NCBI GenBank assembly: GCA_900168235.1 | Contig: FUZG01000003.1 | Coordinates: forward strand, 62,001 to 126,000 | DNA: 64,000 bases | Direction: 5' to 3' | From: Lachnospiraceae bacterium | GTDB lineage: Bacteria; Bacillota; Clostridia; Lachnospirales; Lachnospiraceae | In this document: one piece after another, positions 7,468 through 63,323 of the stretch | Layout: every line of letters starts with the position of its first letter | How positions within the stretch are numbered: the first letter of the stretch is position 1 | Notes under the pieces: generated by a model | What the model saw: the letters and a program-made list of their open reading frames with translations, nothing else | What the model was told of the DNA's origin: nothing | Database searches by the model: none | Program-made: the position numbers and the translations under genes

Positions 7468-9474
7468 TTATTTCACTCTCGAAGTGCTGATATTTGAGTA
7501 TCCATCAGGAAGTTCAAACTCGACTTCTGCGCACTCGCCGGATCTGATCATGACCTTCTCAAAGCCAATGAGCTCACGAACACAGGTCTTCTCATTGTCA
7601 CCAAAGATCATAACTGTCTCAAGTCCCTCTCTGTCACCGGTGTTCTTTACAGTGACATGCATTTTTTTGCCGTCGCCGGAAATTTTCTCATCGGTCACTT
7701 TGAAAGTGGTGTAGGATAAGCCGTATCCAAACGGGAACTGCACCTTGACGCCGTGCTTATCCGTGTATTTATAACCTATCTCGTAGCCCTCAGTGTAGTG
7801 GACTTTATCCTTCTTTCCAAATTCGCCTACGCTGAATGCTGAGCAGTCCTCAGGCTTAAGGTAGAAGGTCTCGGGAAGTCGTCCGGAAGGATTAACTTCA
7901 CCGAAAATGATATGAGCCAGTGCACGTCCGCCCTCACAGCCGTTGTAATAGGACCAGAGAACAGTGTCAGCCTTGTCGATCCAGGAGCCCATTTCTACTG
8001 AACTGCCGCTTATCAGTACGATAACTGCATCTTTTCTGCAATCCAGGATAGTACTTATGAGCTCATCCTGTCCGTAAGGCAGCTTCATATCATCTTTGTC
8101 AAAGCCCTCTCTGTCGATCACGTGATTAAGACCGCCCACATAGATAACGCTGTCATAATCCACGCTCTTCAGAACCTTTTCAACTTCTTCTCTCTTTTCC
8201 TTGGAGACTTTCTTTATCTGCTCATTTTCCTCTTCGGTCACTTCCAGGCTCTTTTCCTGCCAGCTGATCTCAGTCGCATCAGGCGCGATCTCCGCGTCAT
8301 AGCCTGCGATGAAGTCAACTCTGGTATTTCCGCCCAGATATTCCTTTATTCCGAGGATAGGATTGATCTCGTAAAGTGCCTTGATCTCGGCACTTCCGCC
8401 TCCGAGAGAATGTTGTCTTATAGCATTATCACCGATAACAAGTATCCTCTTCTGCTTTTCAGCCTTAAGAGGAAGTACGTCACTTTCATTTTTAAGAAGG
8501 ACGATGGATTCAGAAGCTACTCTGTATGCTGCTTCCTGATGAGCACGGGTATTATATGCGCCCGCCTTTCTATCACCTTCCAGCATATTGAGCTTGTCCA
8601 TCATGAGAAGGATACGGAATACCTTTTTATCAATGATACTCTCGTCGATCTTCTTCTCCTCGACCATTTTTTTCAGAGGTTCCGCGAAATAATATTCATC
8701 AAAATTGTCTGTTACGGACATTTCTATGTCGCATCCTGCAGATGCTGCCTTATAAGTATCATGAACTCCACCCCAGTCGGAGATCACTACGCCCTCATAA
8801 TCCCATTCGTCTCTCAGGATCTTATTTAAAAGGAACTCGCTTTCACAGCAGTATTCGCCGTAAACACGGTTATACGCTCCCATTACAGAGCGTGCATCGC
8901 CCTCTAAAAGAACTCTTCTAAAGACTTCGAGATATGTGTCCCTGAAGATTTCCTCGTCGATTTCAGAGCTTACAGCCATTCTGGCAGTTTCCTGATTGTT
9001 TAAGGCAAAATGCTTTACGCATGCCGCCACATCATTCTGCTGGATTCCCTTTACGAACTCTATTGCAAGTTCGCTAGTGAGATATCCGTCTTCACTGAAA
9101 TACTCAAAGTTTCTTCCGCAGAGCGGACTTCTCTTCAGGTTGATGCCCGGAGCAAGGATCACATCCTTTCCTCTGCCCCGGGCCTCAGAACCAAGTACAT
9201 CTCCCTCTTCATAAGCAAGTTTTCTGTTAAAAGTGCTTGCAAGAGCACTGTAGCACGGAAGATAAGTCACGAGATCGTCCTGCTGGTTCAGGAAGAGCCA
9301 TTTAGCATCAAAAAACTCTCCCCTGACACCCATAGGACCATCGGAAGTCATGAGACGGGGAACCCCCAGTCTCTCAACTCCCTCTGTATGGAAAAATCCG
9401 CTTCCGTGGATCATTCCGATCTTTTCATCCAGAGTCATCTTCCGAACAATTTCATTAATCTGTTCTTTTGTCAT
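7468..9474 (-). CDS. GH3 beta-glucosidase (cytoplasmic)
   Basis: A 668-aa GH3 enzyme. The N-terminal TIM-barrel is recognisable from SDGPMGVRGE, the substrate-binding KHF...N motif near residues 154-160, and the catalytic nucleophile D233 in VISDWGGVHD. The GH3 C-terminal sandwich follows (SGSSVEMGSW; SYYNGCEGGRALAHIIFGE) and a fibronectin-III-like tail closes the protein. There is no signal peptide, so it hydrolyses imported beta-linked oligosaccharides inside the cell. It is 26 bp behind the second permease and is the last gene of the LacI-regulated cellobiose/cellodextrin operon. It is a hydrolytic counterpart to the GH94 phosphorylase. Confidence 0.92.
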   Translation of the reverse strand: MTKEQINEIVRKMTLDEKIGMIHGSGFFHTEGVERLGVPRLMTSDGPMGVRGEFFDAKWLFLNQQDDLVTYLPCYSALASTFNRKLAYEEGDVLGSEARGRGKDVILAPGINLKRSPLCGRNFEYFSEDGYLTSELAIEFVKGIQQNDVAACVKHFALNNQETARMAVSSEIDEEIFRDTYLEVFRRVLLEGDARSVMGAYNRVYGEYCCESEFLLNKILRDEWDYEGVVISDWGGVHDTYKAASAGCDIEMSVTDNFDEYYFAEPLKKMVEEKKIDESIIDKKVFRILLMMDKLNMLEGDRKAGAYNTRAHQEAAYRVASESIVLLKNESDVLPLKAEKQKRILVIGDNAIRQHSLGGGSAEIKALYEINPILGIKEYLGGNTRVDFIAGYDAEIAPDATEISWQEKSLEVTEEENEQIKKVSKEKREEVEKVLKSVDYDSVIYVGGLNHVIDREGFDKDDMKLPYGQDELISTILDCRKDAVIVLISGSSVEMGSWIDKADTVLWSYYNGCEGGRALAHIIFGEVNPSGRLPETFYLKPEDCSAFSVGEFGKKDKVHYTEGYEIGYKYTDKHGVKVQFPFGYGLSYTTFKVTDEKISGDGKKMHVTVKNTGDREGLETVMIFGDNEKTCVRELIGFEKVMIRSGECAEVEFELPDGYSNISTSRVK

Positions 9475-9500
9475 TTTCGTGCAAATCCTTTAAATGAAGA

Positions 9501-10424
9501 TCAACCCTTGACCGCACCGGCTGTAACACCGCCTACAATATACTTTGAAAGGAAAAGGTATATTACGATTACCGGGAAAATAGATGCAGCGATCATGATA
9601 TAGATCTGACCCATATCAAATCTCAGCCAGTCAGCACCACGGAGCTGTGCCAGGAGGACCGGAAGGGTCTTTTTTGTATCAGTATGCAGGATAAGCGCCG
9701 GTGTGAAGTAATTGTTCCAGCTTCCTACAAAACTAAAGATCAACTGAACACTGATAGCCGGTTTGATAAGCGGCAGGATGATAGTGTTGAATGTACGGAA
9801 CTCACCTGAACCATCGATTCTCGCTGCTTCCACGAGAGACATAGGCAGATTACTTGCCATGTACTGTCTGAAGTAGAAGTATGTTATAGGCGCAGCGATA
9901 GTCGGGATGATGAGCGGCCAAATAGTATCATCCATTCCAAGCTTGTTTATAAGCTGGATGAAACCAAGGATAGTAACCTGTCCCGGGATCATCATGATCG
10001 CAAGGATAAATGCCGCAACAGCTTCTCTTCCCTTAAATCTGTATGTGTTTACCGCATAAGCTGTCATTGCGGAGAAGTAAACACTGAGAACAGAAACAAG
10101 GACAGATACTGTGATACTGTTCACAAAACCCTTTGCTATCGGAATAGTTCCATTTACAAGATTCTGCCAGTTTTCAAGGACATGTGTGCTCGGAAGAACC
10201 GTGAAACCTCTTGTCATCTCGGCATGGGATCTTGTGGAGTTTATGAGAAGTATATAAAACCAGATAAGGCAAAGTGCTGTAAAAAACACCAGTACCGCGT
10301 ATGCAATTACCCGCCGCGCCCTTACTGAAAGGCCGCGGTTTACGTGACTTTCTATTTTATTCATTTTACTTTCTTTCATCTCTGTTGAAGGACCGTGACT
10401 TATATAACTTTCTGCGCTACTCAT
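9501..10424 (-). CDS. Carbohydrate ABC transporter permease, MalG type
   Basis: About 307 aa with six hydrophobic segments and the cytoplasmic loop EAARIDGSGEFRTFNTIILPL, the EAA motif that contacts the ATPase. The start at 10424 is chosen because AAAGGAGG lies 7 nt before this ATG. An ATG 30 nt upstream overlaps the preceding permease and has no such site. It forms the inner-membrane half of a CUT1 importer with the gene at 10441. No ATPase gene is present in the operon. Such importers usually share a housekeeping MsmK-type ATPase. Confidence 0.92.
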   Translation of the reverse strand: MSSAESYISHGPSTEMKESKMNKIESHVNRGLSVRARRVIAYAVLVFFTALCLIWFYILLINSTRSHAEMTRGFTVLPSTHVLENWQNLVNGTIPIAKGFVNSITVSVLVSVLSVYFSAMTAYAVNTYRFKGREAVAAFILAIMMIPGQVTILGFIQLINKLGMDDTIWPLIIPTIAAPITYFYFRQYMASNLPMSLVEAARIDGSGEFRTFNTIILPLIKPAISVQLIFSFVGSWNNYFTPALILHTDTKKTLPVLLAQLRGADWLRFDMGQIYIMIAASIFPVIVIYLFLSKYIVGGVTAGAVKG

Positions 10425-10440
10425 TTCACACCCTCCTTTG

Positions 10441-11346
10441 TCATTCCTTTGCACTGTTGATACGGAATACGATCAGACTCAGGATACCTGTTACAATAAA
10501 CATGAATACTGAAAGAGCACCACCCATACCAAAGTTCTTACTTGTAAGGTACTGATTCAGGTTCATGATAACGGTGATCGTGCTTCCTGCAGGTGTACCC
10601 TTACCATTTGTGAGGATCTGCGGTACATCGTACATCTGAAGACCACCGATAAGTGATGTGATCAGCACATAAATAAAGATGGGACGAAGGATAGGCATTG
10701 TTATACGGAAAAAAATCTGTGTTGCATTTGCTCCGTCAACCTCTGCCGCCTCATAAAGTGAGCTGTCGATACCAAGCATTCCTGCAAGGAGAAGTATTGT
10801 TGTATTTCCAAACCACATAAGGAAATTCATGAGCATGATAAGGATTCTGGATGCTGCCACGCTGTTCATAAATTTGAACGGCTCAGAAATGATGTGAAGA
10901 CTTATTAAAATCTGGTTTACCGGGCCTGCATCTGCAAAGAGTGCAAAGAATAACATAGAAAATGCAGATGCCATGATGAGGTTCGGCATGTAAATGACTG
11001 TCTTAAAAAATCTCTGTCCCTTAAGCCTGAGGCTGGGATCTGAGAACCAATATGCTAAAAGTAAAGCAACTACGATCTGCGGTATGAAACCGCCCACCCA
11101 CATAATGAGTGTATTTCCGAGATACTTCCATATCTCCGGAGCGCTAAGAAGCTTTACGTAGTTTTCTAAACCAACAAAATTCGGACCAATCTGTGTCAGA
11201 CCTGAACGATAATTTTCGAAAAAGCTGTTATAAATTGTAGAAACAAGGGGAATAAAACTGAAGATTGTGTACACAGAGAAGAATGGAATAAGGAATATGT
11301 ATCCCCACCGATCACATCTACTCACGCTGGACGTCTTCCTGCTCAT
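10441..11346 (-). CDS. Carbohydrate ABC transporter permease, MalF/UgpA type
   Basis: A 301-aa CUT1-family permease with an N-terminal membrane segment (GYIFLIPFFSVYTIFSFIP), about six helices in all and the EAA loop EAAEVDGANATQIFFRITMP near residue 200. TGGAGGT precedes ATG. It lies between the binding protein and the second permease and pairs with the latter. The substrate is inferred to be cellobiose or a short cellodextrin because GH3 and GH94 flank the operon under a shared LacI repressor. Confidence 0.92.
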   Translation of the reverse strand: MSRKTSSVSRCDRWGYIFLIPFFSVYTIFSFIPLVSTIYNSFFENYRSGLTQIGPNFVGLENYVKLLSAPEIWKYLGNTLIMWVGGFIPQIVVALLLAYWFSDPSLRLKGQRFFKTVIYMPNLIMASAFSMLFFALFADAGPVNQILISLHIISEPFKFMNSVAASRILIMLMNFLMWFGNTTILLLAGMLGIDSSLYEAAEVDGANATQIFFRITMPILRPIFIYVLITSLIGGLQMYDVPQILTNGKGTPAGSTITVIMNLNQYLTSKNFGMGGALSVFMFIVTGILSLIVFRINSAKE

Positions 11347-42887: not shown

Positions 42888-44624
42888 TCATTCTGTGATG
42901 CTCTTATTCGAGATCACGATCTCCCTGTCACAGTAATTCAACACGCTCTTTCTATGTGTAACAAGGAGACATGTCGGGCGGGGATTCAGCGCGCAGATTC
43001 CCTGCATTACCTGCTTCTCCGTATCCTCATCAAGTGCGGATGTGGACTCATCAAGGATGATAAAAGGCGACTTCCTGATGACAGCTCTTGCGATGGCAAG
43101 TCTCTGTGCCTGTCCTTCAGAAAGGCCTACACCCTTCTCTCCTACTCTTGTTTCAAGGCCATCCGGCAGATCCTTCAGGAAATCCAGACAGTCAGCAATA
43201 CGGAGTGCTTCTTCCATCTCTTCCTCCGTTGCATCTCCCTTTCCAAGAAGGAGATTTTCCCGTATCGTACCTGAGAACAGTGTATTTCCCTGAGGCACAT
43301 ATGAAATAAATGAACGGACAGCACCGTTTACATGCGCTTCATGACCGTTTATATCACGGTAAACTATGTTTCCCCTGTCTGTCTGAAGGAAATACAGAAG
43401 GATTCTTACAAGAGTTGTCTTACCAATACCGGATTTACCCATTACTGCAACAAATTCACCCGGATTTATCTTTAATGAAACATGACTAAGTACATCATTT
43501 GAAGTATTCTCAATCTCGGTCTTTTTTGATCCTGCTCCGATAAGTGCTCTGTCATATGCAAAGCTCAGGTCAGATATCTCTACACCGACTGCACCGCTCA
43601 TTTCTGCGATCTCTCTCCTCTCTTCAAGAGGGATCGCCTGTATCTCCATCACACGGCCCGCAGATGCCAGGATTGACACCGCTCCTGAAAACTTGCTGAC
43701 AAGAGCTACTATAGGAGACTGGATACGGCTGAAGAGTGTAATAAAGAGTGTCAGCGTACCGTAGGTGATATTTCCCTTTGCTATCTGTGTTGCTGCATAC
43801 AGGAACGCCAGCATATACCCCAGCGAAAAGGTTCCATTCATAACAAAGCTTGTAGCCGCACCAAGTTTATTCTTTTTCCAGACCCAGTAAAAACGGTTCT
43901 CTCTAAGCTCTGTAAGACGTTCAGAAAAATGTTCTTCCCCGTTAAAAGCCTTTACAACAAGAAGATTTGCAAGACTTTCCTGAATAAACGAACGATACGC
44001 CGTCTCTGTTTCCTGAACCTTTACCTGGTATCTCTTGAGAATACGTCCAAGAACCCACGAAAGAACTACTCCGATAGGTGTCAAAAACAGAGCTGAAATA
44101 GCCAAAACCGGTGAAAAATAAAACAATGTTACAAAAACAGAAACCAGCTGAACTAACAGGATAATTATATCCGGTATCACATTGACCATTCCGTTTGCGA
44201 TATTGCCCGCATCACTTGTCATACGGGTCATCATATCTCCGGTATGAAAACGCTGTGTTCCGATCCACACAGAACAAAGCAGCTTATCATATACCTGCTT
44301 ACGGATGCCAAAACTATATTTTTCATTGATCATAGCAGATGCCAGATCCAGACAAACCTGTATAACAAGCTGAGCGATCATTACCCCTGCAAAGATCAGA
44401 TATACTGTGGCTTCTGTTTTTCCCTGGCTCGCAGTATCAACAAGCTGTCTTGAAATAAGAGCCGCATATATAGAAATATATGTCATGAACAGCCTTACTG
44501 CCATCATTCCGCCGATTCTGAACTTGAACGGTGAAGTATAATGCATGAGCCATTTGATATACTGTTTGCTCTTCTCCCTGTCTGCGACAAACGATTTTAA
44601 CTGCCTTAAAGATTGTGACGCCAT
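42888..44624 (-). CDS. ABC exporter, fused permease-ATPase (type IV/MDR-like)
   Basis: 578 aa: six membrane helices within residues 30-300 and an ATPase domain with Walker A GKSGIGKTT (396-404), Q-loop PQG (444-446), signature LSEGQ (501-505, variant of LSGGQ) and Walker B ILDE (523-526). It works as a homo- or heterodimeric exporter of peptides, lipids or drugs. GGGAGAGTAGTA precedes ATG. It is divergent from the two-component system at 44709, with about 85 bp between, so control by that system is likely. It is the only peptide-exporter-like ABC protein in the window and could in principle serve the lasso-type locus 8 kb away; this is speculative. Confidence 0.9.
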   Translation of the reverse strand: MASQSLRQLKSFVADREKSKQYIKWLMHYTSPFKFRIGGMMAVRLFMTYISIYAALISRQLVDTASQGKTEATVYLIFAGVMIAQLVIQVCLDLASAMINEKYSFGIRKQVYDKLLCSVWIGTQRFHTGDMMTRMTSDAGNIANGMVNVIPDIIILLVQLVSVFVTLFYFSPVLAISALFLTPIGVVLSWVLGRILKRYQVKVQETETAYRSFIQESLANLLVVKAFNGEEHFSERLTELRENRFYWVWKKNKLGAATSFVMNGTFSLGYMLAFLYAATQIAKGNITYGTLTLFITLFSRIQSPIVALVSKFSGAVSILASAGRVMEIQAIPLEERREIAEMSGAVGVEISDLSFAYDRALIGAGSKKTEIENTSNDVLSHVSLKINPGEFVAVMGKSGIGKTTLVRILLYFLQTDRGNIVYRDINGHEAHVNGAVRSFISYVPQGNTLFSGTIRENLLLGKGDATEEEMEEALRIADCLDFLKDLPDGLETRVGEKGVGLSEGQAQRLAIARAVIRKSPFIILDESTSALDEDTEKQVMQGICALNPRPTCLLVTHRKSVLNYCDREIVISNKSITE

Positions 44625-44708: not shown

Positions 44709-45386
44709 ATGCATAAACTTATGATGATCGATGACGACAGAGAAGTTCTTCTCTTGAATCAAAAATACTTTGAAAACGAGGGTTATAAGATCTCTGTCCA
44801 CGACAACGCCGCTGATGCCCTGAGGATGATTCCAAAGGAAAAACCGGACTGTATTCTCCTTGATGTGATGATGCCCGGTCTGGACGGTTTCAGTGCCCTT
44901 CCTGAGATCCGGAAGCTTACTGACTGTCCCGTTATCTTCCTCACCGGCAAAGACACGGAAGAAGACAGAGTAAAAGGACTCCTGTCCGGCGCAGATGACT
45001 ATATCGTGAAACCCTATAGTCTGAAGGAGCTGTCCGCAAGAATACTGGTACAGCTTCGCCGTAGAATCCCTCTTCCAAGTACTGATCAGCGTTCATTTCC
45101 GCCGCTTACGATAAACCTCATGCAACGGAAAGTGTACTACAACGAAACCGAGGAAATCAACCTTTCTAACAGAGAATATGAACTTCTTTTACTCCTCACC
45201 GAAAAACCCGACCATATTGTAACCTTTGAAGACATCGGAAACGCCATCTGGAATGTATATCAGGAATCTGACCGCAGGTCTATCATGGTCATGATGAGCA
45301 GACTCCGGAAAAAGCTTGAGCTCTACAAAGGACTTGAAGACTGCATAGAAACTGCTTACGGAAAGGGCTATTCTTTCATACCATGA
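44709..45386 (+). CDS. OmpR/PhoB-family response regulator
   Basis: 225 aa. Receiver domain with acidic pocket IDDD (7-10), phospho-acceptor D52 in LLDVMMP, T79 and K101 (IVKPYS). A C-terminal winged helix follows (NREYELLLLLTEKPDHIVTFEDI ... MVMMSRLRKKLE ... TAYGKGYSF). It overlaps the kinase gene by 4 bp (ATGA), a standard coupled pair. Likely target: the divergent ABC exporter and/or its own operon. Confidence 0.95.
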   Translation: MHKLMMIDDDREVLLLNQKYFENEGYKISVHDNAADALRMIPKEKPDCILLDVMMPGLDGFSALPEIRKLTDCPVIFLTGKDTEEDRVKGLLSGADDYIVKPYSLKELSARILVQLRRRIPLPSTDQRSFPPLTINLMQRKVYYNETEEINLSNREYELLLLLTEKPDHIVTFEDIGNAIWNVYQESDRRSIMVMMSRLRKKLELYKGLEDCIETAYGKGYSFIP

Positions 45387-46246
45387 AAAACAAGAAAAAT
45401 TTTGAACAGCCGGAGCTCTCAGTTGAAGAACTCTCACATGCGCTCTACGAAGCAAATAAAAAACTTGCGGAAACTAATAAAAAACTCGAGGAATCCAATA
45501 AAGCTCTGGACGAAGCCAATCAGCGTCTGGAGCATAATATCCGCTTAAAAATGGAAATTTACCAAAACATTTCCCACGATCTCCGCTCTCCCATCACAGC
45601 CATCCATAATTCCATCGAGTATCTGGACAGTCTCCCTGTGATCACCGAAGAGGATGTCCGCTCTGTACTTCCGCTCATGTCTTCACGTACATCGGCTCTG
45701 GAACGCATGATAAGCGAGATATTTCTTATCACCAGACTCGACACTTCAGATTCTCTCATGCAGCTGCAGGAGATTCCCTGCCGGGATTTCCTCGAAGATT
45801 TCTTTTTCATGACAGAGGCTGATTCACGGTTCCATGACCGCTGCCTCATGCTGGATGTACCTGATGATCTAAATCTGATCATCAAGATCGATCCTGACTA
45901 TATGAAACGTGCTCTCGACAACCTTTTCAACAATGCGCTCCGCCACACCGAAAAAGGCGATAAGATCTGCCTCTCTGCAAAAGAAGGCGGCTCCAAAGAA
46001 AATCTTACTGTCGAGATCATTTTATCAAATAACGGATTACCTCTGAGCGACGAAGACGCTTCCCACGTATTTGACCGCAGCTGGACCGGTTCATCCTCAC
46101 GAACACCGGATTCAAAGAGCGGTATCGGTCTGGGTCTTTCCATTGTAAAAAGCATCATCGAACAGCACCACGGTACAGTCACAGCTTTCTCCGACGCCGA
46201 AAATGAAATGTCAGCAGCATTCAAGATCACTTTGCCTGCGGGATGA
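45383..46246 (+). CDS. Soluble histidine kinase with N-terminal coiled coil
   Basis: 287 aa. There is no membrane segment and no recognisable sensor domain. Residues 15-57 form a coiled coil with a repeating A-N-K-K-L-x-E-x-N pattern that leads straight into the dimerisation helix. The H-box is NISHDLRSP with H65, the N-box DNLFNNALRH and the G-box SKSGIGLGLSIVKS. The signal must come through a partner protein or from the cytoplasm. It is co-translated with the regulator at 44709. Confidence 0.93.
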   Translation: MKNKKNFEQPELSVEELSHALYEANKKLAETNKKLEESNKALDEANQRLEHNIRLKMEIYQNISHDLRSPITAIHNSIEYLDSLPVITEEDVRSVLPLMSSRTSALERMISEIFLITRLDTSDSLMQLQEIPCRDFLEDFFFMTEADSRFHDRCLMLDVPDDLNLIIKIDPDYMKRALDNLFNNALRHTEKGDKICLSAKEGGSKENLTVEIILSNNGLPLSDEDASHVFDRSWTGSSSRTPDSKSGIGLGLSIVKSIIEQHHGTVTAFSDAENEMSAAFKITLPAG

Positions 46247-52392: not shown

Positions 52393-52668
52393 ATGAGGGA
52401 ATCAACAAAGATCAAGCTAGTTAAAAACCTCGATGTAACTGATCTGGCCGGAGACAAGGTCATGGTTGACTTTGAAAGCGGCAAATATTTTATGTTGAAG
52501 GGAACCGCTGCAGATATCTGGAATCTTATCCAGTCTGACACAACCGTTGAAAACGTTAAAATCGAACTTCAGAAGATTTATGACGTTGATGATGATACAT
52601 GTATCTCAGGAATTGAAACTTTCCTGGATCAGCTTAATTCAAACGGATTCGTAGCTCTTAGCGAATAA
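52393..52668 (+). CDS. PqqD-family RiPP recognition element (lasso B1-type)
   Basis: 91 aa, a stand-alone PqqD domain: three beta strands (KIKLVKNLDVTDLAGDKVMV, then FESGKYFMLKGTAADIWNLI) and three helices ending in the L-N-S-N-G-F-V-A-L pattern. Such RRE proteins bind the leader of a ribosomal peptide and deliver it to the modifying enzymes; in lasso biosynthesis this is protein B1. It is a separate transcription unit, convergent with the kinase gene and sharing its terminator. The B2 protease often fused to, or next to, B1 is absent. Confidence 0.85.
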   Translation: MRESTKIKLVKNLDVTDLAGDKVMVDFESGKYFMLKGTAADIWNLIQSDTTVENVKIELQKIYDVDDDTCISGIETFLDQLNSNGFVALSE

Positions 52669-52680
52669 GATCATACAAGC

Positions 52681-52737
52681 AAAAATCTGCATCCACTGTT
52701 CCGTATTTACCAATACGGTGTGGATGCAGATTTTTTT
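52681..52737. terminator. Bidirectional terminator between PqqD-like and kinase genes
   Basis: TCTGCATCCAC and GTGGATGCAGA form an 11-bp stem that continues inward as CCGTATT/AATACGG. It has a run of seven T on the right and AAAAA on the left. Confidence 0.92.
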
Positions 52738-52740
52738 ATC

Positions 52741-53670
52741 TTATTGAAAGTCCTTTTTCAGCACATCCATAACCATCTGAGCTCTGTCTTTTATGGTCAT
52801 TCCTTCCCTGGGACGGGAAATCTCATAGATTCTCAGCGCAGCCCCCATCTTTGAAATAAGCTTATACATCTGAGGCTGTGTACCAAATCTCACATAATCC
52901 TCTGAGCGATAAAAATTATTTAAAAGCATCATTATCTTGTCAGCACCGGTAATCTCCCTGATTTCAGGCTTATCTCCATCATTTATGGTGAGATAAAACA
53001 TCACCGATGTAGGAAGGACGCGATCTTCGTAGACATCCGAACTATCTACGAAATACTTGAATCTCTCATCTAAAGTGACCGGCTTTAACTTCTTCGGATC
53101 AAATCCATAGTGTTCTACCGTATCCCTGCAAAGACGTCTGATAGGGTGCGATGAGTAAACAACCGGTTCCTCTTTATCATTAAATCCGATACGCATAACA
53201 TCATCAGACATAAATCCAAGACCATTGTTTATGAGCTCAGTTGTCATGGTAGACTTTCCTGCACCGGACTCACCTGATATCAGAACAGATTTATCATTAT
53301 ATGAAAGAACACTTCCGTGAACAGTAAGATTTGCTCTCTCGATGATAATGCGGGGAAATGCAAAGTTCATGAGGGTCAGATAGAAGTTCGTAGGATCACA
53401 GTCTTCCTTAAGACTATATGCGATCCGCTTTCCTTCACTTACTCTGTAGAACCCTGTATCTACCTTGTAAAACTTTATGAAATCTTCTCCATAAATATAA
53501 GCCGCTTCCATTCCCACCATTCCTTCAGACGAAACCAGCGACTCATCCCAGAGACTATCCTGTCTTTCCAATATAACATCGGGTGACTCAAATTCCGCAG
53601 CCGGAACACCATAAAGCGGTGTATCTGACAAAACGTCAAAACCAAATAATCTATACTTAAAAGTATTCAT
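52741..53670 (-). CDS. HPr-kinase-like tailoring kinase of the lasso-type locus
   Basis: 309 aa. The N-terminal 120 residues are specific to this group. The C-terminal half resembles the HPr kinase catalytic domain, with P-loop GESGAGKST (133-141) and a Walker-B-like MSDDVMRIG shortly after. In paeninodin-type clusters a homologous kinase phosphorylates the C-terminal Ser of the lasso precursor. Here the precursor directly upstream (131 bp gap, with an attenuator-like hairpin) contains no Ser, so Thr, Tyr or another substrate must be used. The related HPr-rel-A systems of exopolysaccharide loci are the alternative family; the adjoining precursor and cyclase favour the RiPP reading. Confidence 0.82.
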   Translation of the reverse strand: MNTFKYRLFGFDVLSDTPLYGVPAAEFESPDVILERQDSLWDESLVSSEGMVGMEAAYIYGEDFIKFYKVDTGFYRVSEGKRIAYSLKEDCDPTNFYLTLMNFAFPRIIIERANLTVHGSVLSYNDKSVLISGESGAGKSTMTTELINNGLGFMSDDVMRIGFNDKEEPVVYSSHPIRRLCRDTVEHYGFDPKKLKPVTLDERFKYFVDSSDVYEDRVLPTSVMFYLTINDGDKPEIREITGADKIMMLLNNFYRSEDYVRFGTQPQMYKLISKMGAALRIYEISRPREGMTIKDRAQMVMDVLKKDFQ

Positions 53671-53698
53671 TTATGAATCCTTCTATAAAAACTAAATC

Positions 53699-53746
53699 CA
53701 AAAATAGACCGGAAGTCTGGCTCACTATCCAGATCTGCCGGTCTAT
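53699..53746 (-). terminator. Attenuator/terminator between precursor and kinase genes
   Basis: On the minus strand ATAGACCGG and CCGGTCTAT form a 9-bp outer stem with an inner TCTGG/CCAGA stem, followed by TTTTTG. It lies about 55 nt after the precursor stop. It would end most transcripts after the precursor and let some continue into the kinase, a common way to make precursor in excess. Confidence 0.75.
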
Positions 53747-53800
53747 CTCCTATACTACAATATACGCTTCTCAAGAAGTCATTCTTCTTAGTAACATAAA

Positions 53801-53962
53801 TTAGTTGCGAGTGTAGTTTCCATCCTCACCAAATCTATGATACCAAGCATTCTCTTCGTGATCGTAAACTGTCTTTCCGTCCTCTGTGTGATTATCTTGC
53901 GGACCGCCTGCTGTAGCATTGATAGCAAGTTCCTGAAGCTCAGGTGTATTCCACTTTCTCAT
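53801..53962 (-). CDS. Lasso-type RiPP precursor peptide (53 aa)
   Basis: A 53-residue frame with AAAGGAG about 9 nt before ATG, placed between cyclase and kinase genes. The leader has the lasso pattern aromatic-x2-P-x-L-x2-L...T-x: W4, P7, L9, L12, T17, A18. The predicted core starts GGP at 19, matching the AGP start of paeninodin. Glu27 is then core position 9, the usual ring-closing acid (alternatives Asp28, or Asp23 as core position 5). The core would be 35 residues, long for a lasso, rich in D, E, H, Y and W, and ends ...GNYTRN. The peptide has no Ser or Cys. The assignment rests on leader pattern and context; the final structure is unknown. Confidence 0.8.
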   Translation of the reverse strand: MRKWNTPELQELAINATAGGPQDNHTEDGKTVYDHEENAWYHRFGEDGNYTRN

Positions 53963-54051
53963 AGTATTTATCTCCTTTCCCTTTGATGCATTTATATTAA
54001 CACATCTCTTTGACCAATTTTAAATTCTAACGTAACTGTAACAATTAAAGA

Positions 54052-55956
54052 TCATGATGTTGCCCGGTCCATTACATCAAGCAAAAGAATTATACCCATG
54101 ATATTAGCAAGTTTCCATCCCGAATAATTCTTTGGGTCATCAACAATAGCTTTTCTAAGCTTGTCCACGTCTATCCACTTATTTGAACCCACCCGGTCTA
54201 TCAATGCAAGGCCATCATGCCTTACTGCATCCCATTCTCTAGAGAGACGCTGCTTTTTATCAGATGCCTGGACTCCCTTATTTGTTACATTGAGGATATG
54301 GTCCGGAACGATTCCTTTCATGTACTCCCGTATCAGTCTCCTGTCCCTGCCCTCCTTTGTAAACTGCTCTACAGGAAGACTCATGCACCATTCTATAACC
54401 TTTTTATCACGGGTAGGATCTCTTTCAAGGATTCCCTCTTTAGATGTAAGTGTCGACGAAAAATCACTGATCTGCCTCAGAATTATCATTTTATCCAGCT
54501 TTTTTTTCATCTCAGCAAAATTCTCACCGGTCCGTCTGTTCTCTTCAAAAACCTCTCTCAGATATCTTTCTGTTTCAGCCCTTCCCGGAGCATCCTTCAT
54601 CAAAAACGTTTCATCTATTCCACGATATTCATGCTTGATCAAGCCGGCTTTATCCTTCAAAAAACTTTTAAGGAAATATTTAAAGCTATAACCGTTATTT
54701 TTACAATATGCTCTGGATTCGCTGAGTAATTTTATGTACCTGTGACTTCTAAATAATTCATTTGTATAGAGAGCGTAATCTCCAAATGAAACGCTGAGAT
54801 TACCATATTCGCCTGTAAGGATCAGCTTTATCCCCTTCTCACGGGCTTTTTTATAGGTATTCTGGAACCATGCCATATTATAAACTGACTTTATGGGCTG
54901 ACCGGCATAATCAACCATTTCTTTATTCATATTCCAAATATTGATATCACTCATATCCAGAAATGAACAGTCAAGATTTTTGAAAATTTCCGCCGTTTTT
55001 CTAACGAATCCGGATTCGTCCGTAGCACCGCCGCGTCCATCCTTTTCTGTAAGAAGTCCCTTTTCAGGTATCATTGTAAATGTATGAAGTTTCTTTCCCT
55101 GCTTTTCCAGAAAAGGTGCAGCAAAAGCATTTACTGTGTTTGAGTCAAACCCTCCGCTGAGACATATTCCTGTTTCTGACTCTGAACGAAGAACTCTTGT
55201 TACTGCATCATGCATCAGTTCCTGAAATGCCTCACGATATTCATCATCACTCTTAAGCCGCAGTTCCCTGCCATCCATCATAGGCATCCAGTACTGCTTT
55301 TCATGCACTCCTTCATCATCAAATATCAGATATGAGCCAAGCGAGATCCTTTTTACCTCACACGTGATCGTTTCATTAATATCACGGAATAATCCAAGAG
55401 TTGATTCACCTAAATAATAAGAAACCCATCGCTCATTAATGGTATTTGACGCAAGAGGTCTCAACGACTCAATAAAGGTCGAAAAGAACAAAGTCTTGCC
55501 GATCACCCTGTAATAAAGAAATCTATATCCGGTTGCATCACCAACAAGAAACAGCTTTCTCCTTTTTTCATCAAAATACGCAAATGAATATGCTCCCAAC
55601 GGATCGTTTAATCTGCGGTCTTCAAACTTTCTGAAAAATCTGTATAAAAGATCTCCATCAGCCATATCGGACCAGGTCTCAGAAGCCATTCCGAGTGCAC
55701 GTCCAATCTCATCCCTATTATCCAGAACTACATCAGCATCGAACCATATACCGCTTTCCTTGTCCCGCAACGGACTTTTTTCCTTATGAGATTCCACCGT
55801 AAAATACTGTGTCACACATCCCATATAAATACCATTATCATAAATCTCTGAAAACTTATCTATAGGACACTTCAGTGCAGGCGCTTTCAATATATCCTGC
55901 TGTTCCTTTGCTATAGGTCTGCCATCAAGGCTAACTGCTCCCCAAATTATCGACAT
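54052..55956 (-). CDS. Asparagine-synthetase-like lasso cyclase (C protein)
   Basis: 634 aa. The N-terminal 220 residues form a class II glutaminase fold lacking the catalytic Cys2 (it reads MSIIWGAV), so it cannot use glutamine. The C-terminal ATP-pyrophosphatase domain has the PP-loop SGGFDS (267-272) and downstream LTGEYGNLSVSFGD. This is the layout of lasso C proteins, which adenylate the ring acid and form the isopeptide bond to the core N-terminus. AGAGG lies before ATG. It is the first gene of the minus-strand unit and ends 89 bp before the precursor. A conventional Asn synthetase is unlikely given the missing Cys and the neighbours. Confidence 0.85.
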   Translation of the reverse strand: MSIIWGAVSLDGRPIAKEQQDILKAPALKCPIDKFSEIYDNGIYMGCVTQYFTVESHKEKSPLRDKESGIWFDADVVLDNRDEIGRALGMASETWSDMADGDLLYRFFRKFEDRRLNDPLGAYSFAYFDEKRRKLFLVGDATGYRFLYYRVIGKTLFFSTFIESLRPLASNTINERWVSYYLGESTLGLFRDINETITCEVKRISLGSYLIFDDEGVHEKQYWMPMMDGRELRLKSDDEYREAFQELMHDAVTRVLRSESETGICLSGGFDSNTVNAFAAPFLEKQGKKLHTFTMIPEKGLLTEKDGRGGATDESGFVRKTAEIFKNLDCSFLDMSDINIWNMNKEMVDYAGQPIKSVYNMAWFQNTYKKAREKGIKLILTGEYGNLSVSFGDYALYTNELFRSHRYIKLLSESRAYCKNNGYSFKYFLKSFLKDKAGLIKHEYRGIDETFLMKDAPGRAETERYLREVFEENRRTGENFAEMKKKLDKMIILRQISDFSSTLTSKEGILERDPTRDKKVIEWCMSLPVEQFTKEGRDRRLIREYMKGIVPDHILNVTNKGVQASDKKQRLSREWDAVRHDGLALIDRVGSNKWIDVDKLRKAIVDDPKNYSGWKLANIMGIILLLDVMDRATS

Positions 55957-56379: not shown

Positions 56380-58143
56380 ATGATAATGCTCAGAAACACA
56401 GTGTCAGGCAAAATTGTGAGGTTTATGTTGGTTGAAGCACTTTTGATCATGTTCTTCATCATAACAGCAGGAATAAACAATAATATTCATGCTGCATCTA
56501 TCAGCGATTCAGATAAAAATGAATTAAAATCTATGTTTCTCCAAATGCTTGAGACTACAGATACTTCTGAGCACGATGTTTCCAAATACAAGATCAAAAA
56601 TTATACAGATTTAAGAGAAATTTTTGAAGAAGTTTGCAAAAACGAAGGCGAATTAGCTTCGATCTGCTATACAACAACCCATATAGATACCGTAAACTCC
56701 AAAGGATACGTTTCAAAGGTCAGCCTTTCCTGCTTTGAAAACGAAAAAGACTTTGATAAAAACTATGCTGATATAAAGGAAACTGTAGATTCTATTCTAA
56801 GCGGAATCACCGACGACATGACAGATGCAGACAAAGCCCTGTATCTTCATGAAGCATTAATTAACAGAACAACAGCTGTCACCAATGCCGAAATGCGTGA
56901 CAGATGCGAAGCCGGACCGCTTCTTTTCAAACGCGGAAACTGTTTTGGCTATACACTGGCATATTCATATCTCTTAAAGAGAGCAGGCATTGAGTCTGTC
57001 AGAGCATACAATAAAGCACACACTTGGAGTGTTGTTAAGCTCGACGGCGAATGGTATCACGTTGATGTTACATGGGATGATCCCATTTCAAGTGCAGATG
57101 TGGATCACAAGTTTTTCCTCAGAACAGATAAAGAATTTCAGAATGACCCTGTGGCAGCAGACCGCCATCTGAATTACACCATGAAAGACAGCGCAGGAAA
57201 TAATATCAGCGCTACTTCAACAAAGTACTCAGACAGCTTTATCCACAACGTTAAAAATGTTGGAATCATGACATTTAAGGACGGTTACTGGCAGTACTCC
57301 AAGGATGGAAAGACCTACAGAGGACGTCTTACTGATACAGAAGCACAGGAAGTTACAGAAGATGCAGAAGACGAAAATCCCGGATCAGAAGCACAGGAAC
57401 CCGCTGATGACGAAGAAGAGGACGAAGACGAAGAAGATCTGTCTCCTTGGACAATGGTAATTGGTGCGCCTGCTCCTTCAACTCCTGACCCCGAGCCGGA
57501 ATCAGAGCATGCACATGAAACAGAAGCAAAATTTTACCTCTGCAAGGGAGACCGCACAAACTTTAAACCTGATAATTACATAAGCCTCGGCAACGGAACA
57601 ATTACCGAAACAGAACAGCTTGCAGATGACGAGGATGCTATTCTCGCAGCACTTGGTGAAGTACCCGACTATTCTTCTTATCTGTCAGATGGACAGCGCG
57701 TTTGCTGGTATTCCGTTAAAGAAGTTTGGGACGGCTGGCACGTTGATGGTCAGATCATTACAGATGAAGAAGCTCAGTCATCCGAAGCAGCTGCTGAGGA
57801 AGCAGTATCTGAGGAAGCAGCAGATATTTCTGAGGAAGAACTCGAGGATCCCGAAAATGAACCCGAATCAGAATCAGAACCTGCACATACAACAACAACA
57901 GCAAAGTTTTACATCTGTAAGGGAGACCGCACAAATTTCAAGCCTGACAACTTCATAAGTCTCGGCAACGGAACAATTACTAAAACAGAACGTCTTGCAG
58001 ATGATGAAGATGCTATTCTCGCAGCACTTGGCGAAGTACCTGACTATTCTTCATATCTGTCAGACGGACAGCGCATTTGCTGGTATTCCGTTAAAGAAGT
58101 TTGGGACGGCTGGCACGTTGATGGTCAGATTGTTTCAGAATAA
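56380..58143 (+). CDS. Secreted transglutaminase-like protein with two near-identical C-terminal modules
   Basis: 587 aa. A hydrophobic signal segment (about residues 16-35) ends HAAS. The transglutaminase-like core has an intact triad: C188 (RGNCFGYTL), H214 (AHTWSVV) and D229 (YHVDVTWDD). After an acidic linker come two modules of about 78 residues (383-460 and 508-585) that differ at only a few positions and are separated by an Glu/Ala-rich spacer. Each contains AKFY-CKGDRTNFKPDN and VWDGWHVDGQI. The modules match no family I know and may bind the cell wall or a glycan. The fold is related to lasso B2 peptidases, but export makes a direct B2 role unlikely. It may act on peptidoglycan or on exported product. 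Confidence 0.8.
   Translation: MIMLRNTVSGKIVRFMLVEALLIMFFIITAGINNNIHAASISDSDKNELKSMFLQMLETTDTSEHDVSKYKIKNYTDLREIFEEVCKNEGELASICYTTTHIDTVNSKGYVSKVSLSCFENEKDFDKNYADIKETVDSILSGITDDMTDADKALYLHEALINRTTAVTNAEMRDRCEAGPLLFKRGNCFGYTLAYSYLLKRAGIESVRAYNKAHTWSVVKLDGEWYHVDVTWDDPISSADVDHKFFLRTDKEFQNDPVAADRHLNYTMKDSAGNNISATSTKYSDSFIHNVKNVGIMTFKDGYWQYSKDGKTYRGRLTDTEAQEVTEDAEDENPGSEAQEPADDEEEDEDEEDLSPWTMVIGAPAPSTPDPEPESEHAHETEAKFYLCKGDRTNFKPDNYISLGNGTITETEQLADDEDAILAALGEVPDYSSYLSDGQRVCWYSVKEVWDGWHVDGQIITDEEAQSSEAAAEEAVSEEAADISEEELEDPENEPESESEPAHTTTTAKFYICKGDRTNFKPDNFISLGNGTITKTERLADDEDAILAALGEVPDYSSYLSDGQRICWYSVKEVWDGWHVDGQIVSE
57526..57760 (+). repeat. Intragenic direct repeat, copy 1
   Basis: Encodes the first C-terminal module (residues 383-460). 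The DNA is highly similar to 57901-58135, with mostly synonymous changes. Confidence 0.88.
57901..58135 (+). repeat. Intragenic direct repeat, copy 2
   Basis: Encodes the second C-terminal module (residues 508-585), ending two codons before the stop. Protein differences from copy 1 include L/I after FY, Y/F in DNY/DNF, E/K after IT and Q/R before LADD. Confidence 0.88.
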
Positions 58144-60087: not shown

Positions 60088-60291
60088 TCATACATTTTTT
60101 ATCGGACACACTTTTATACACATTCCGCATCCTACACAAATATCCGCATTGATCAATGGATACATAAATCCTGTCTCATCCGGCTCCATCTTTATCGCAT
60201 TTACCGGACACATGTTTTCACATGCATAACACCCGCAGCAATCTTCTTTCTTTGTATAGAGCGTGGGTGTCTTTTTGTTATCTACCTGCAT
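60088..60291 (-). CDS. 2[4Fe-4S] ferredoxin-like protein (detached FrhB N-terminal module)
   Basis: 67 aa with two complete 4Fe-4S motifs: C18-x2-C21-x2-C24-x3-C28-P and C52-x2-C55-x2-C58-x3-C62-P. In many exopolysaccharide loci the same module is fused to the N-terminus of the FrhB-like protein. Here it is a separate gene that overlaps the end of the FrhB-like gene by 10 bp, so the two are probably co-translated and act as one redox complex. Confidence 0.92.
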   Translation of the reverse strand: MQVDNKKTPTLYTKKEDCCGCYACENMCPVNAIKMEPDETGFMYPLINADICVGCGMCIKVCPIKNV

Positions 60292-61250
60292 AATACTTTC
60301 TTAAGCCCCCTGATTATTTTATTCCTAACCTTATATGTTATGGACGGACGCCATATAGCATTAACAGCCCACTTTACTCCTTTGCGGGTATAATCCCTGT
60401 AAAAAACACCTGTCATCACATTTGGATCAACCGGCCTTACAAGGCACGAATTATGTTTTATAACTTTATTAATATCCACTGTTCTAAGGAACAACTCATC
60501 TTTTATCTCTAAAAGAAACCTATCTGCCTGCTCATTATTTACCAACAGCACAGAAACACCTTTTTCATCGTAGATTTCCGGTTCTTCCTCCTGAACACCC
60601 CAAAAGTCACCGATTGTTAAATCGGATTTTCTATTTTGTCCCTTTATTCCGCATTTATAACATGACGGTCTAAGGTACAGGTTCGACAGAAAGCCATGCA
60701 TATATTCATCATCATTGAATACTCTTGCATACTCCGAGCTATCCCGGTAAACGATCTTAAAAGTAAAGTCGTTCCATCCCTTGTCTTTATTTCTAAAATA
60801 AATGGACTTTACAGCTTTACCACCTGACTGCTCTTCTATATATCGTCTAAAAACCTCAGGATTTGGCACACCATGACAGATAAAATCCATAATTATCAGA
60901 TTTTTACGGTCATCACCAACGATACCTGCAAGCGCATTTGCCTGACATGGAGTTCCGCAAAAAAGGACTTTCCTTCCCTCTTTCAGGTACTTTTTCACTT
61001 CTGCATACGATCTTCCAACATTGCTCTGAGCATATTTACTTCCGTAAAGATCACGCAGTTCATCTATATTTTCAACACACTTATGGAAGACATTGCCCTT
61101 CTCATCTATGGCCGCGCCGCAAACGACACCACCTGTCTTTATGACATGCTTAGCTGCCACAGAAAAGATGCCTCCGGATGAGGACAGCATTCTCTCATCA
61201 CTATCACTGTACCCCGCATAACAGACAGGATAACTCTCAATTTCGTTCAC
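60282..61250 (-). CDS. Coenzyme F420 hydrogenase/dehydrogenase beta-subunit-like protein (FrhB family)
   Basis: 322 aa. N-terminal FrhB half (YAGYSDSDERMLSSSGGIFS), then LFCGTPCQANAL, a conserved Cys loop expected near Fe-S or flavin, DFICHGVPNP, and a Cys pair in CYKCGIKG before DLTIGDFWG. Such proteins are common in surface-polysaccharide clusters of gut bacteria next to pyruvyltransferases. Their exact reaction is not settled; a flavin-dependent redox step on a sugar or carrier is inferred. It lacks the usual N-terminal ferredoxin domain, which is supplied in trans by 60088-60291. Confidence 0.88.
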   Translation of the reverse strand: MNEIESYPVCYAGYSDSDERMLSSSGGIFSVAAKHVIKTGGVVCGAAIDEKGNVFHKCVENIDELRDLYGSKYAQSNVGRSYAEVKKYLKEGRKVLFCGTPCQANALAGIVGDDRKNLIIMDFICHGVPNPEVFRRYIEEQSGGKAVKSIYFRNKDKGWNDFTFKIVYRDSSEYARVFNDDEYMHGFLSNLYLRPSCYKCGIKGQNRKSDLTIGDFWGVQEEEPEIYDEKGVSVLLVNNEQADRFLLEIKDELFLRTVDINKVIKHNSCLVRPVDPNVMTGVFYRDYTRKGVKWAVNAIWRPSITYKVRNKIIRGLKKVLCR

Positions 61251-61254
61251 TCTT

Positions 61255-62319
61255 TCAACCCTCTAAAGCAGCATCTATGTATTCCGATGCTTCCTTTCTC
61301 TTTTTCCTTAAAATTGATTCTGTTTTGTCAGTATCAAATGAAAACTCTATGTCACCACTAGTATTTGTGATCCTGTGATCATTGAGCCCAAAAGTCTTTA
61401 ACAAAGTGTCGATCCTGGAGTTCATATTTCCTGTACCATCTGTACCGATCCTGTCAAATACGGCAAAAGGCTTATGGAATAGTATCGAAAAAACTGTTCC
61501 GTGGAAAGAATCAACAAAAGCAGCTTCTGCATTCAGGAAAAGATACAAAAATTCTGCAGGGCCGATCTTCCAGGCTTCCTCACAATTAAGAATGTCAATA
61601 ACCACTGCACCAAGTTCTGCAGCCTTCATATTGATAAATTCATCGTATTCCTTGGATTTTTCACCCAGAAAATACTTAACTACAAACTTACCTTTAACCT
61701 TTACTTTACTTTTTGAAGATGCTTTAACCCACTTGCTCCTGCTGATCAACATTGTAGGATCAAGTAATACTGCCGCATCTCTTCCTGTAAGGTCTTTTAT
61801 TATATCTGCACCCGCTTCTTCTCTTACGGACAACGTCTTAAATTTTGAAAGCCATGCTTTAAATTCATCTCTATACTTTTCAGGAATTTCAGAGACGCCA
61901 AAGCTCGCAGCATACGAAACCTTCTGCTCATCTCTTGCATATTTAAGAAGTGCCCTCGGAACATAATAATAAAAATTCGGATTCCACACCTGGTCACTTC
62001 CTACCATAAAGTAGTCATAGCGATCCCTCACATCATCAGAAACCCTTTCTGCCTCATAAGGAATGACCGCCGGAGACCATTTGATATTCAGATCAAAAAT
62101 CTCCCACGTGTAATTATAGGACTTCTTTTTCCTGTTGATCTTTAGATAAACATTTTTTATAAGCGTCTTTACTATAACCTTTATCCTGCTGTATTTTTTC
62201 CATCCGATCGTCTCTACATCGTACCCTTTATCCGTAAGATACTCCTGCAGAGCATAGTTCTGGAGTCTGTTTCCCAGATTCAGATCAACAAGCGTAACAA
62301 TACCTATCTTCTTTTTCAT
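61255..62319 (-). CDS. Polysaccharide pyruvyl transferase family protein
   Basis: About 354 aa. The start at 62319 (KKKIGIVTLVDLNLGNRLQNYALQ) fits the family's N-terminal NxGN-x-LQ pattern. GAGG lies 12 nt upstream, and a TTG at 62337 overlapping the preceding stop is possible. Further family features are DYFMVGSDQVWNPN and, near the C-terminus, FVDSFHGTVFSILFHKPFAVF. It adds ketal-linked pyruvate to a sugar of the surface polymer using PEP, introducing negative charge. It is 4 bp from the FrhB-like gene. Confidence 0.92.
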   Translation of the reverse strand: MKKKIGIVTLVDLNLGNRLQNYALQEYLTDKGYDVETIGWKKYSRIKVIVKTLIKNVYLKINRKKKSYNYTWEIFDLNIKWSPAVIPYEAERVSDDVRDRYDYFMVGSDQVWNPNFYYYVPRALLKYARDEQKVSYAASFGVSEIPEKYRDEFKAWLSKFKTLSVREEAGADIIKDLTGRDAAVLLDPTMLISRSKWVKASSKSKVKVKGKFVVKYFLGEKSKEYDEFINMKAAELGAVVIDILNCEEAWKIGPAEFLYLFLNAEAAFVDSFHGTVFSILFHKPFAVFDRIGTDGTGNMNSRIDTLLKTFGLNDHRITNTSGDIEFSFDTDKTESILRKKRKEASEYIDAALEG

Positions 62320-62333
62320 AGCAGCCATAAACC

Positions 62334-63323
62334 TCAAAACATCAGATTTCTCATTCGATATACCAGTTTGTAAAGTTTGAATCTAAACAAAATGTAAAAC
62401 ATTTTCTGTCTGGGTCTTAACAAAGAAAAACGGACCGTTTTAAGCGCGTTCTCCGTGAATCGATCCTCTCTTATGCTCTTTATTTCCGAAACAGCACTTT
62501 TTTCTCCCTCAAGCAGATATGCGTTTGTTATAGAAACATAAAGCGTATAAAACGCGGAGCCCATGAGTCTCACGTCATTATTGATCTTATGTTCCTTAAA
62601 ATAATCACATACTATACCGTGTCTTCTTTTCAGCATGTCAAACATGCCTTTTCTGTATCTTCTTGTAAGAGATTCAGAATTATCCCTGTAATAGACCAGC
62701 TTATCTTTTATAAACACAATTTTTTGTGCATTTTCTGCAATAAACATCTGAAAAATATCGTCTTCTGTATAAACCTCTCTCTCAGAAATAAAGCACTTTT
62801 CCGAAATGCATTCTCTCCTGTAGAGCCTGCCCCAGACATATCCGGGATAGTTCTCGTAACCCACTGCATAAACCTTACCAATTACCGGAAGTACGTACTC
62901 ATCAATGATATTGCCTTCAATTACTCTGTCCGGCATCTCATAGGTATGCTCGATGATCACTCCGTTATCATCACGAAAATGACCGCATACGCTCACGTCA
63001 GCATCACTATCTGTAAGAGCCTTGTAAAGCTTCTCAACAAACTCAGGTGCCACATAGTCATCACTATCCACAAAACAGATGTATTCGCCCTTTGAAGCAT
63101 CAAATCCGGCTTTTCTGGCACTTGTTAGCCCGCCGTTTGGCTTGTGGATCACAGTTACTCTCGGATCACTCTTATACTCATCACAGAGAGCAGGGCTCGC
63201 GTCCTTTGAACCGTCATCAACAATGATGCACTCTATATCCTTGTAAGTTCCGTTAAGAATACTGTCTACGCATTTTTTCAGATATTTTTCCTGATTATAT
63301 ACAGGTACGATAACACTTACCAT
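62334..63323 (-). CDS. Family 2 glycosyltransferase
   Basis: About 329 aa from the ATG at 63323, chosen because AAAGGA lies 9 nt upstream; an ATG 9 nt further up is too close to that site. VSVIVPVYNQEKYLKKCVDSI, CIIVDDGSKDAS and CFVDSDDYV identify a GT-A fold family 2 enzyme, with the acid/base region YTEDDIFQMF. It is co-transcribed with the pyruvyltransferase. The donor is unknown. Confidence 0.92.
   Translation of the reverse strand: MVSVIVPVYNQEKYLKKCVDSILNGTYKDIECIIVDDGSKDASPALCDEYKSDPRVTVIHKPNGGLTSARKAGFDASKGEYICFVDSDDYVAPEFVEKLYKALTDSDADVSVCGHFRDDNGVIIEHTYEMPDRVIEGNIIDEYVLPVIGKVYAVGYENYPGYVWGRLYRRECISEKCFISEREVYTEDDIFQMFIAENAQKIVFIKDKLVYYRDNSESLTRRYRKGMFDMLKRRHGIVCDYFKEHKINNDVRLMGSAFYTLYVSITNAYLLEGEKSAVSEIKSIREDRFTENALKTVRFSLLRPRQKMFYILFRFKLYKLVYRMRNLMF

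Follow-up and report, generated by a model that had tools for sequence, protein, structure and literature searches.

Evidence for a dispersed, paeninodin-like lasso-peptide cluster in a polysaccharide locus of a Lachnospiraceae bacterium, with its B2 leader peptidase gene just beyond the window analysed

The closest described relatives of the gene cluster presented here are the lasso-peptide clusters of ruminal bacteria reported by Sabino et al. (2020; PMC7533575) and the paeninodin-like clusters of Bacillota (PMC5067487; PMC13381572). We analysed a stretch of 64,000 nucleotides from a Lachnospiraceae bacterium (the window; positions 62001-126000 of contig C11 of its genome, G000), which holds lasso genes at 52393-55956; positions beyond the end of the window continue its numbering and are called window-equivalent. 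The precursor encoded there is letter-for-letter identical to one listed, with a 34-residue core, for Lachnospiraceae bacterium KH1P17 in Table 3 of Sabino et al., and it shares with the ruminal clusters of that paper the predicted core start and a leader Thr at position -3, a placement proposed for those clusters in its text. Because of this identity we take KH1P17 to be the most likely source of the window. Clusters related to that of KH1P17 include kinase, nucleotidyltransferase, glycosyltransferase and two-component genes (PMC7533575), as does the locus described here, and for twelve core peptides a survey of 2026 on the same culture collection reports the core motif [GA]xxxxxxxD (PMC13289728). 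The cluster is an ordinary one for a lasso peptide, with a precursor known from the literature, and a preliminary description of the locus, which had suggested an uncharacterised branch of the family, is superseded on that point, since this precursor and related ruminal ones have been published and characterised in silico (PMC7533575).

With the paeninodin-like clusters (PMC5067487; PMC13381572) the locus shares a leader-recognition protein (B1) and a leader peptidase (B2) encoded separately, an HPr-kinase-like protein (K), a nucleoside triphosphate (NTP) transferase, an exporter (D) and a [Y/W]xxPx[L] leader. It differs from them in that B2 and the NTP transferase are encoded 9 and 11 kilobases (kb) from the cyclase gene (C), in a Thr placed at -3 by conservation, in a 34-residue core, in a neighbouring gene for a transglutaminase-fold protein (TG) and in a PadeA-type precursor score that falls under the cut-off. 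Clusters for linear polyphosphorylated peptides (LPPs) also combine a PqqD-type recognition element, an HPr-like kinase, an NTP transferase and an ABC (ATP-binding cassette) transporter, but they have no cyclase and use a signal-peptidase-like enzyme (PMC13381572), in contrast to the cyclase and B2 found here; an LPP-type cluster is ruled out by the presence of the cyclase. We propose that the locus is a standard but dispersed paeninodin-like lasso-peptide cluster lying within a polysaccharide locus, with its B2 gene just outside the window, and we put the probability of this reading at roughly 0.9.

Profile scores confirm the four genes that the preliminary description had assigned to a lasso-type locus of ribosomally synthesised and post-translationally modified peptides (RiPPs). 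B1, a PqqD-type RiPP recognition element (52393-52668, plus strand), scores 58.3 bits against PF05402 (cut-off 23.4) and 63 bits against lasso_PqqD_Bac (cut-off 80). K, a candidate precursor kinase (52741-53670, minus strand), matches PF07475 (Hpr_kinase_C) at 36.8 bits, over the cut-off of 33.3. The precursor, A (53801-53962, minus strand), is the 53-residue peptide MRKWNTPELQELAINATAGGPQDNHTEDGKTVYDHEENAWYHRFGEDGNYTRN, preceded by a ribosome-site-like AAAGGAGA; its leader carries W4, P7, L9, L12 and T17, exactly as had been described, and it scores 22.4 bits (E 7.5e-05) against NCBIfam lasso_PadeA_fam, under the cut-off of 27. Of the two traits of the paeninodin-like subfamily, an HPr-like kinase and a PadeA-type leader, the first passes its cut-off and the second falls short of it. 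C (54052-55956, minus strand) is a lasso cyclase with the Asn synthetase fold (PF00733, 89.4 bits) and the motif SGGFDS, and scores 212.7 bits (E 9.8e-63) against the lasso cyclase model lass_lactam_cya, for which the cut-off is 525; its residue 2 is Ser, in agreement with the Cys2-less protein noted earlier. The gene order B1, K, A, C is preserved in a same-genus ortholog (L025), whose cyclase is 60% identical; there the position between K and C is taken by a related frame of 59 codons. A chance open reading frame is ruled out for A by the ortholog and by other relatives.

The gene that seemed to be lacking lies a short way past the edge of the window. When the window's own genome was searched with the PF13471 profile, three matches were returned, one of them over the cut-off: a B2 on the same contig (C11:127366-127605, minus strand; 62 bits, cut-off 26), which also scores 63.9 bits against NCBIfam lasso_biosyn_B2 (cut-off 33). 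Its frame (window-equivalent 65339-65839, minus strand, outside the window) starts at a TTG and has 166 codons, the 22nd of which is an in-frame ATG. It stands 1.3 kb beyond the end of the window, at a distance of 9.4 kb from C, whose strand it shares. Its motifs KCFVRAL and AHAWL coincide with what we take to be the Cys and His positions of the family. About 1 kb further on, 11 kb from C, is an NTP_transf_5 gene (window-equivalent 66874-68223, minus strand, outside the window; PF14907, 134.2 bits), separated from B2 by one glycosyltransferase-like frame on the opposite strand; in four related loci (L027, L029, L033 and L037) B2 and an NTP_transf_5-like gene adjoin directly. The earlier statement that no B2-like gene is recognisable among the neighbours therefore holds for the scanned proteins of the window, none of which is a B2, but fails for the contig: B2 is absent from the window only, and the contig encodes a PqqD-type B1, an Asn-synthetase-fold cyclase, a PF13471 B2 and a precursor with a ring-capable pair of core residues.

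Related genomes show a similar arrangement. Related cyclases were found in 7 of 48 genomes of the genus (at E 1e-20) and in 9 of 299 genomes of the family (at E 1e-40), which makes 15 genomes in total, the window's own being counted in both searches; a wider search from the cyclase of genome G161 reached 7 of 396 genomes at E 1e-70, none of them new, and a scan of genome contigs with C as query found no relative. B2 exceeds the Pfam cut-off in 13 of the 15. Among the five genomes that make up the window's cyclase clade, the nearest B2 is 3 to 20 kb away from C. In the G001 ortholog, B1, K, A, C and TG form a single block, and B2 is encoded on that contig at 12.8 kb from C; B2 is likewise distant in G030 (20 kb) and G161 (15 kb).

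Where does the core of the precursor begin? Precursor frames were collected by a loose leader pattern and 22 were kept after visual inspection, some of them read from an internal Met, the rest being dropped as non-precursor. The leader Thr lies 10 residues past the Pro in all 22, a spacing that the selection pattern favours. If the core is counted from the third residue after this Thr (T+3), Asp or Glu stands at position 8 or 9 in 21 of the 22 (the exception being L035), and the first residue is Gly in 16 and Gly, Ala, Ser or Cys in 19. Asp occupies T+11 in 15/22, and when the 30 residues that follow the Thr were shuffled 2000 times the best column never exceeded 10 (0/2000), although the precursors, chosen by leader and eye and not by core, are mutually related, which makes the shuffle a rough guide only. 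Two precursors in L034 and one in L040, in which Ala replaces the leader Pro, were kept outside these counts; all three have Asp at core position 8 or 9 as judged by eye. These register statistics lead to a predicted leader of residues 1-19, a core of residues 20-53 and a predicted nine-residue ring between G20 and D28, with Thr17 at -3 rather than -2; the core start given by Sabino et al. (PMC7533575) implies the same ring. The core is thus longer than that of usual lasso peptides, as had been remarked, with 34 residues when G20 is first and 35 in the earlier register, in which G19 is first.

Our reading is supported by a B2 that passes two curated cut-offs on the contig and strand of C, by the occurrence of B2 in most genomes with a related cyclase, by the gene content of the G001 ortholog, by the core pair conserved from T+3 and by the published precursor and core start (PMC7533575). 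Several points weigh against it. B1, the precursor and the cyclase all score under their NCBIfam cut-offs; two of the 15 genomes, G047 (75% complete) and G331 (93% complete), have no B2 over the cut-off; and with 9.4 kb and polysaccharide-type genes between B2 and C, co-regulation does not follow. Thr at -3 comes from conservation, against the rule that Thr is penultimate (-2), stated for all precursors reported earlier in a paper that documents Ile at -2 as well (PMC10368454), and 15 of the 22 precursors could still cyclise if Thr stood at -2 and the ring had 7 to 9 residues. Lastly, the cluster is known here from its genes, and no product has been seen.

Around the lasso genes and between them are genes of the glycosyltransferase, pyruvyltransferase and acyltransferase kinds, and further genes that resemble polysaccharide genes by eye, which indicates that the cluster is dispersed across a polysaccharide locus; a capsule or polysaccharide setting has been reported for lasso clusters of Bacilli (PMC13381572). 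A small 4Fe-4S ferredoxin-like frame, an FrhB/FdhB-like protein and a polysaccharide pyruvyl transferase are encoded in a row within this locus, at 60088-62337. The candidate for exporter D is an ABC gene with ABC_membrane and ABC_tran domains (42888-44624, minus strand; PF00664, 126.3 bits; PF00005, 94.9 bits), 7.8 kb from B1, unlike the entry for KH1P17 in Table 1 of Sabino et al. (antiSMASH), where lasB and lasC are present and lasD is absent (PMC7533575). In all 5 genomes searched, the contig that carries C also has an ABC_membrane gene, at a distance of about 3 to 25 kb. Adjoining the exporter gene are those of a response regulator (44709-45386, plus strand; PF00072/PF00486) and a sensor histidine kinase (45383-46246, plus strand; PF02518/PF00512), a two-component pair and candidate regulators that may be linked to the lasso genes; such genes have been reported in Butyrivibrio lasso clusters (PMC7533575).

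The chemical steps, the cut site, the modification by K, the role of the nucleotidyltransferase and export by the ABC protein are inferred from the families concerned. B1 would bind the W..P.L leader and hand the precursor to K and B2; B2 would cut before G20, with Thr17 then at -3; C would activate D28 and close the nine-residue G20-D28 ring around the tail; and the lasso product would leave through the ABC exporter.

In addition to the expected genes, the window holds TG (56380-58143, plus strand), an apparently secreted protein of 587 residues with a signal-peptide-like start (by eye) and two C-terminal repeats of about 85 residues that end in GWHVDGQI. It barely passes the PF01841 cut-off (23.5 bits against 23), a domain found over the cut-off in 5 of 7 TG members, and its sole match among solved structures is a weak one to a transglutaminase-like protein (9crn, E 0.00059). 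Could it be a working part of the pathway, acting outside the cell on the exported peptide by trimming its long tail or fixing it to the cell surface? We hold such a role to be possible, at somewhat less than even odds. TG lies near the cyclase in 5/5 genomes of the window's cyclase clade, across three genera and in varying orientation: in G001, G030 and G161 it is immediately upstream of C and has the orientation of C, and in G094 one copy is 1.3 kb upstream of C with two more TG-like genes close by. In each of the five the genome's best TG match is the copy near C, while such matches are scarce (four genomes have 2 or 3; in G094 there are 10 matched pieces, several from one protein), and Cys, His and Asp, which we take to be the expected transglutaminase triad, are preserved by eye in 6/6 full-length copies. 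Against this, a phmmer search at E 1e-3 gave no TG match near the remaining 15 cyclases, an absence that is weaker for the short loci among them (L028, 6.8 kb; L032, 12 kb; L035, 14 kb); the association comes from five loci, of which two are closely related; the window's copy is divergent from C; and the substrate is hypothetical. TG-like genes also occur elsewhere in the genomes of G005 and G024, outside the clade. A seventh copy (L033:14849-15997) is without the transglutaminase domain, and the G094 locus to which it belongs (L033:1936-15997) contains, in the space of 14 kb, three TG-like genes and three precursors that are near-copies of one another; the genus of G094 consists of one genome. 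TG as a substitute B2 is ruled out, because it matches PF01841 and not PF13471, has the signal-peptide-like start and coexists with a true B2.

The five clade cyclases group beyond a branch with support 99/99, on a tree rooted at midpoint only. One further row labelled TG, L034_G161c, stands for another cyclase encoded in the G161 locus and branches far from the five, and when it is included the TG label needs 2 changes on the tree, a value matched by 2 of 500 shuffles. The parts of PMC7533575 covered describe no secreted transglutaminase-fold neighbour and, for KH1P17, no second precursor. Our searches of the literature on lasso peptides of Lachnospiraceae, Butyrivibrio and the paeninodin type met neither a TG neighbour of a lasso cyclase nor the second lasso locus of this genome (L031).

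That locus, on contig C13, comprises a precursor (7822-8025), K (8128-9030) and C (9030-11039), with the cyclase motif SSGFDS, and the 20 kb fetched around it contained nothing that matched B1 or B2 of the window. Across the genome, a single B2 and two PqqD genes exceed their cut-offs, and both PqqD genes are on C11; the second PqqD gene, at C11:182447-182611, is divergent (37.4 bits), and similar ones occur in G001 and G030. G001 repeats the pattern of a second locus lacking B1 and B2, and the related locus L041 in G249 has its own B2. In the simplest reading, L031 may borrow the B1 and B2 of the window's cluster in trans. A broader proposal, of a Lachnospiraceae sub-clade with a dedicated secreted TG, co-inherited with the cyclase, that would process or anchor the exported peptide, and whose B1 and B2 would also serve the second locus, strikes us as rather unlikely.

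Less probable still is the register of the preliminary description, in which the core begins at G19, Thr takes the -2 position known from characterised lasso peptides, and E27, the ninth core residue, closes the ring. The -2 rule (PMC10368454) speaks for it, the window's precursor does have Glu at T+10, and, if 7-residue rings are also allowed, those 15 of the 22 precursors show an acid somewhere at positions 7 to 9 of the core. Yet the closest relative, L025, has Thr at T+10, and from T+2 an acid stands at position 8 or 9 in 8/22 (against 21/22 one residue later) and Gly, Ala, Ser or Cys comes first in 6/22 (against 19/22), so that the refuting condition named in the preliminary description, freely varying core positions 1 and 9, applies to its own register, which appears to be one residue off.

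Finally, the reading that the preliminary description had favoured, of a lasso system lacking its own B2 whose leader is removed in trans or by an unusual protease, or is retained, is very improbable: it draws on a window free of B2 and on related loci with B2 far from C, as in G030 and G161, but the single B2 over the cut-off in the genome is on this same contig, 1.3 kb beyond the window and with both family motifs. The most striking part of the earlier account was thus an effect of the window edge, which cut off B2 and gave the appearance of a B2-less lasso system; with the gene in place, this false claim of a B2-less lasso is removed.

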